This document shows, one piece after another, positions 1-1,473 of a stretch of 64,000 bases of DNA. The notes below the pieces were generated by a model. The model saw only the letters and a program-made list of their open reading frames with translations, was not told the origin of the DNA and made no database searches. The translations under genes and the position numbers were made by a program. Every line of letters begins with the position of its first letter. Within the stretch, counting starts at the first letter, position 1. The stretch comes from Actinomycetota bacterium (GTDB lineage: Bacteria > Actinomycetota > Actinomycetes > Mycobacteriales > Mycobacteriaceae). The stretch spans positions 1 through 64,000 of the forward strand of contig JAFDWN010000012.1 of the NCBI GenBank assembly GCA_018268465.1. The letters run 5' to 3'.

Positions 1-1343
1 TTCAGTCCGAATCGTAGGATTAGAACCTCACGCTCACGCGGAGTGAGCATAGACAGTACGCCACGAATGTCGTTAGACATCAGGCTCGCCTCAGTTGAGT
101 CCTCGGGGCGAGAAGAGTTCTCGTCCTCAACGATCTCCGAAAGTGAGTTGTCATCGTCTTCTCCGTATGGAGTATCGAGTGACAGAGGAGAACGGTTAGC
201 AGCGAGAATCTCTTTGATTTTCACTACAGACACATTCATTCCCTTCGCCAGATCCTCGAGATTGGGTCTGCGACCCATTTCTTGAGAGAGCTTGCGAGTT
301 ACTTTTCGCAGATTATTGATGGTCTCAACCATGTGGACAGGCACGCGAATTGTTCGTGACTTGTCGGCGATGGCGCGAGTGATACCCTGACGGATCCACC
401 ATGTTGCATAGGTCGAGAACTTGTAGCCACGCTCCGCATCGAATTTCTCCGCGGCGCGAATTAGACCGAGGTTGCCCTCTTGAATCAGGTCCAGGAACAG
501 CATGCCGCGGCCGGTGTAGCGCTTGGCGAGGCTGACGACGAGCCGGAGGTTGGCCTCGAGGAGGTGGTTCTTGGCCTTCTTGCCGTCCTGGGCGATCCAC
601 CACAGCTCACGCTTGAGCTTCATGTCGAGCTTGTCGCCGGAGTTGAGCTTCTCCTCGGCGAACAGGCCGGCCTCGATGCGCTTGGCCAGTTCGACTTCTT
701 CCTCGGCATTGAGCAGTGCGACCTTGCCGATCTGCTTGAGGTAGGCGCGCACCGAGTCGGCCGACGCCGTGAGCTCGGCATCCTTGCGGGCCTGTCGCAG
801 CGCTTCGGACTCCTCCTCATCCCACACGAAGTCGCCGGACGCCTTGTCCTTCTCCGAAGGCTCGGCGATACCGTCGTCGGCCGCGGGGGCCGCAGGGGTG
901 GCCGCGGCGGGCTGTCCGGCCGGGGTCTCGGCCGACCCCTCCTCGTCCTCGGCGTCCTCGGCGTCCTCGTCCTCGTCGCCGTCCTCATCGTCGTCCGAGT
1001 CCTCGCCGTCCAGATCGTCGAGGTCGAGGTCGGTGTCCTCGTCGGCGATGTCGTCGCCGGGCTCGGCCTCGAGGTCGTCGGTGCTGTCGAGGTCGTCGGT
1101 CACCACGTCGTCATCGGCGGCACCGGGCGCGCCGGCCTTGGTGCCGCGTCCGCGGGCCCCGGGCCCGTCGGCGCTGTCCTGCGAACGCGTCTTGGCGCCC
1201 CGGCCGGCGGCGGTCGCCTTGGCGGCGCGTTTGGCGGGCGCCGCACCGTTGCCGGGCTTGGCCGCGGCCTTCTTGGCAGGAGTCTTGGTGGCGGTTCGCT
1301 TCACCGGCTCATCGGTTGCCGGGCCTGCCTTAGTCGCTGCCAC
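1..1343 (-). CDS. sigA: Primary sigma factor SigA (RpoD/MysA), 3' end outside the window; C-terminal part looks foreign
   Basis: This encodes the housekeeping sigma-70 subunit that directs RNA polymerase to most promoters. I start at GTG 1343, preceded by GAAAGGG. Residues 1-130 are an Ala/Lys/Thr-rich tail and then a long Asp/Glu run, as in mycobacterial SigA. Regions 1.2 to 2.2 follow, including [17 protein letters not shown] and [14 protein letters not shown], and look fully mycobacterial. From about base 480 to the window edge, region 2.3 to 4 reads [15 protein letters not shown] and [15 protein letters not shown]. Mycobacterial SigA, as I remember it, has TIRIPVHMVEVINKL and LSEREAGVVRLRFGL there. 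Wobble GC is about 40-65% in the lines I counted in this part, against about 95% just upstream (601-660). The frame stays open across the junction. It is either a recombinant gene or a chimeric assembly joined at the conserved [12 protein letters not shown] segment. Confidence 0.9.
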
Positions 1344-1473
1344 GTACACCCTTTCGGTCTTGCGTATTCCGGTGGGCACGGGCATGCACCACCGAAGCGT
1401 CGGCTATGTCGAATGTCGGCGTTGATCTCAACTCGGATACTCACCGCTATTCGTTAGGCGGCCGCCGCGCTCC

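Follow-up and report, generated by a model that had tools for sequence, protein, structure and literature searches.

The window analysed here, 64,000 nucleotides at its full length, is C3:1-64000, the first 64,000 bases of a contig of 96,948 bp (C3), and its base 1 is therefore the contig terminus. The terminus lies within a sigA gene, whose frame (3..1349, minus strand) leaves the contig at window base 1 without a stop codon; we place the gene start near 1343, assuming the usual start of mycobacterial SigA. The neighbours of sigA on C3 are a polyphosphate-glucose phosphotransferase (polyphosphate glucokinase), an inositol monophosphatase-like gene, which scores under the NCBIfam cut-offs, and the envelope integrity protein Cei. 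The glucokinase adjoins sigA in 22 of the 24 genus-mate loci; at the remaining two, a contig end interrupts the locus at that point. Judged by these genes, the host genus is probably Mycobacterium or a close relative. The assembly as a whole comprises 6,875,363 bases in 72 contigs, with a completeness of 99.87 and a contamination of 5.86. Read towards the contig terminus, the sigA frame consists of three pieces and two junctions:

687..1343, minus strand: 5' portion of sigA from the host, covering the variable N-terminus as well as region 1.2, assigned by DNA identity to genus mates and by the neighbouring gene
662..686, minus strand: junction 1, 25 nt that encode AKRIEAGL, with one base over, and recur unchanged in genes of both neighbouring sources
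486..661, minus strand: actinobacterial but non-mycobacterial middle piece, running from the end of region 1.2 into region 2 and assigned by identity to another family of the same class (f20)
484..488, minus strand: junction 2, the low-GC switch inside the conserved LIQEGNLGL stretch, placed by codon alignment
1..485, minus strand: fragment of a Melainabacteria-type rpoD (rest of region 2, region 3 and the first residues of region 4), assigned by identity to the order and ended by the contig

The DNA of each piece was compared with 24 genus mates, three genomes of the f20 family and eight genomes of the Melainabacteria-type order, which we take to be Obscuribacterales. The three pieces match three different groups of organisms: the front (687-893) matches the genus mates at 82–88% identity (24/24), the middle (486-661) matches f20 at 90–91% (3/3), and the tail (1-485) matches the melainabacterial set at 81–92% (8 genomes). 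Identities to the other groups were 66–72% (f20, 3 genomes) and 53–61% (melainabacterial set) for the front, 66–77% (genus mates) and 52–59% (melainabacterial set) for the middle, and 62–67% (genus mates) and 64–65% (f20) for the tail; neither the middle nor the tail resembles any of the 24 genus mates. When 396 genomes of the phylum were searched with the protein of 438-698, the three f20 genomes had 93–98% identity and the nine genus mates in the sample 75–77%. The middle piece also has the length of the f20 gene, which is four codons shorter at this place than the genus-mate genes (261 versus 273 nt matched). The initial annotation had read SigA as typically mycobacterial up to a switch to low GC and had assumed two source organisms. 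That reading fails for 486-661, which is high in GC but matches f20; there are thus two switches in sigA, one more than had been recognized, and three sources (the genus mates, f20 and the Melainabacteria-type order).

The tail protein (3-341) is up to 99% identical to proteins of the order, and 45 of its 53 genomes match at E ≤ 1e-40; the closest genome by DNA reaches 91% over 497 bp. The genome of Candidatus Melainabacteria bacterium isolate Amazon FNV 2010 23, reached via 13 loci that were traced to genomes out of the best 80 of at least 590 matching stretches, gave a protein match of 81%, and in a sample of 194 genomes from the Melainabacteria phylum it was the only one to match the tail at E ≤ 1e-40. 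Two other origins of the tail were considered and rejected. Among viral contigs there were 10 pattern matches, but no relative was confirmed among them. For a clostridial source, the best 80 of at least 590 stretches from genome contigs reached at best 62% protein identity and came from mixed phyla.

The GC profile follows the second of the two switches. The GC content at third codon positions (GC3) was 0.97, 0.97 and 0.93 in the three overlapping windows of 90 bp that span 689 to 480; it was 0.73, 0.70, 0.57, 0.50, 0.47, 0.47 and 0.67 in the subsequent windows down to base 60. Over the final 489 nt of the frame, GC3 is 0.56, versus 0.90 for the remainder. Codon alignment with reference genes places the change to low GC at ~485/486, which lies within the earlier placement at 475-490. 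The GC of the middle piece resembles that of the host, so the GC shift by itself reveals only part of the chimera. At junction 1, the 25-nt stretch is unchanged in two of the six genus mates displayed in the codon alignment (L091 and L095) and in two of the three f20 genes (L140 and L142). At junction 2, the references have only ~5 nt in common, although they are relatives and not the true donor strains. The exact 29-mer spanning junction 2 occurs in one of 394 genomes of the class, namely the host itself, and one further genome carries it with one mismatch. The reading frame stays open over both joins, as is expected when homologous genes are joined in register.

As a sigma factor, the composite frame is incomplete. 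It contains the Pfam regions 1.2, 2 and 3, and Sigma70_r4 has no match in it, so that it lacks the full set of regions 1.2, 2, 3 and 4 of a complete SigA/RpoD. Its score against the NCBIfam model of actinobacterial SigA (NF004560) is 487.9 bits versus a cut-off of 711, partly because the frame is truncated. The peptides of regions 3 and 4 that had been flagged as non-mycobacterial are indeed present and differ from those of the genus mates. Among PDB chains, the SigA chain 5tw1_F is the best match (E 6.6e-90) of 480-1349, a range that takes in the middle piece; the best match of the tail is 7ckq_F (1.4e-26), with 5tw1_F only at 3.6e-20.

The 3' end of the host sigA is found elsewhere in the assembly, at the very start of another contig (C19). 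C19 begins with MVEVINKLGRIQREL, and its bases 2-475 continue the host gene, which ends at base 475. The encoded piece of 157 residues matches Pfam regions 3 and 4 and has 98.7–100% protein identity to all 24 genus mates, reaching 100% in 15. The points that correspond to the C3 and C19 breaks are 345 nt apart in 24/24 genus mates. All 24 genus-mate sigA genes read have a normal start of region 4, the one at L112 being ~14 residues short. The front on C3 with its glucokinase and the 3' piece on C19 show that the host sigA is split over two contig ends; the gene is broken across its most conserved part, and its two pieces lie unjoined. Instead of the second, complete mycobacterial sigA that the initial annotation had suggested looking for, the assembly contains the missing 3' part of the host gene, on C19. 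C19 also carries a sigB-like gene, which we infer to be sigB, starting ~6.2 kb beyond the end of sigA. Directly after the host sigA, C19:610-3540 (L007) encodes a protein of 976 aa that matches the NCBIfam hypothetical-protein families PRK12438 and PRK00068 and has a paralogue at C18:13941-16739 (57% identical). The first 300 residues of this protein were found at 0/24 genus-mate loci, where the flanks extend only ~1.4 kb or less past sigA.

The start of C3 also stands out among the 144 termini of the 72 contigs. Its terminal 470 bp have a GC content of 0.517, the lowest of all termini (the second lowest is 0.579), and the difference from the adjoining 1,530 bp is the biggest drop observed (-0.166; mean of the 144 termini -0.015, sd 0.037). 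No comparable low-GC tail was seen in the GC of the other termini, a comparison that a tail of host-like GC would escape. Open frames were inspected at 10 other termini and at the C19 start; as GC was compared at all termini and frames only at these, some chimeric ends may have gone unnoticed if their GC is host-like. A comparison of terminal 25-mers between termini gave two matches among the 144, neither of them at the C3 or C19 start. Milder GC drops of 9–10 points occur at the C39 end, C13 end, C33 start and C62 end, and the C13 and C14 ends share a nearly identical 43-residue frame, which suggests a repeat. One copy of rpoC was found in the assembly; with a single rpoC and no second terminus of comparably low GC, nothing points to a substantial amount of further DNA from the low-GC donor, which speaks against the chimera. 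A 16S rRNA gene was not found in the assembly by a search that was positive in just 9 of 14 control genomes. The 16S and rpoC results fit a metagenome-assembled genome, without proving one; the contig count, the contamination and, weakly, the 16S result favour a chimeric contig end.

A three-way mosaic from three source groups thus occupies a contig end, and the host 3' end lies apart from it. Bases 1 to ~686 of C3 are almost certainly an inter-species chimeric contig end, that is, an assembly artefact, and it probably arose in the assembly of a presumably mixed community. The assembler, working on mixed DNA, would have departed from the host sigA at the conserved AKRIEAGL stretch and followed ~175-200 bp of the homologous gene from another high-GC actinobacterium. 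At the conserved LIQEGNLGL it would then have switched into a low-GC Melainabacteria-type rpoD until the contig stopped, and the real host 3' end would have been assembled separately as the beginning of C19. The organism itself would have no chimeric sigma factor. A chimera of the assembly explains why the mosaic lies at a contig terminus, draws on three sources and has its joins in conserved sequence, and why the host 3' end lies elsewhere. The initial annotation had likewise favoured an assembly chimera joined in the most conserved part of sigA, and the DNA identity of the foreign pieces (90–92% at best), the contig terminus and the separate host 3' end bear it out. The co-occurrence of such organisms is plausible. 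One study of a drinking-water system dominated by Mycobacterium reports that Candidatus Obscuribacter exceeded 1% in one or more of the water samples (PMC12947685); nothing links that study to this assembly.

Junction 2 is the weakest point of a join through shared k-mers. The lack of a long block common to the references there would fit a physical origin of at least one join in the library, by template switching or a chimeric fragment in amplification, instead of in the assembler. We consider this improbable, as two serial joins at matching gene positions, one of them with 25 shared nt, better fit k-mer joins than random ligation. Still less credible is a real double recombination, in which pieces from two other bacteria took the place of the 3' portion of the host gene to give a hybrid primary sigma factor. 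The joins do lie where the sequence is conserved, a requirement of homologous recombination, and the frame is open across both, but an open frame is expected from any in-register homologous join. Moreover, the start of another contig of this assembly carries a host-type 3' end with the sigB-like gene after it, and on C3 no host sequence reappears between the foreign sequence and the contig terminus. Recombination would also need two donors, one of another phylum, within one essential gene, and it has no counterpart of the middle or tail in any genus mate. It is very improbable that a mosaic sigA, recombined with two foreign rpoD genes, is present in a living mycobacterium-like organism, whether beside its own gene or replacing it. 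Least probable of all is a second, acquired rpoD-like gene of the host starting on C3, since the front is a genus-type sigA N-terminus beside its usual neighbour and the C3 match is the only one of four in the genome to cover the N-terminus, even though further sigma-70 genes exist (the sigB-like gene of C19 and, more distant, a gene on C71).

If the mosaic sigA were real, the promoter contacts of regions 3 and 4 would change, and a hybrid primary sigma factor would be of great importance; the evidence points the other way. The chimeric contig end is most likely an ordinary artefact that matters only as quality control. Phylogenies, like claims that sigma factors recombine, would be led astray by a sigA fragment taken from the C3 end, and any use of the C3 sigA should exclude bases 1 to ~686.

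All three C3 pieces look like genuine parts of genes for SigA/RpoD primary sigma factors; in contrast to such genes, the composite fits no single organism and ends before region 4 is complete. Inter-species chimeric contig ends have been described in metagenome assemblies of a mock community containing Salmonella and E. coli (PMC8172020). Similar sequences of different organisms were reported there to be joined at a contig end, as in C3. However, two closely related genomes were involved in that case, whereas at the C3 terminus three sources follow one another in a single gene, and one belongs to another phylum.
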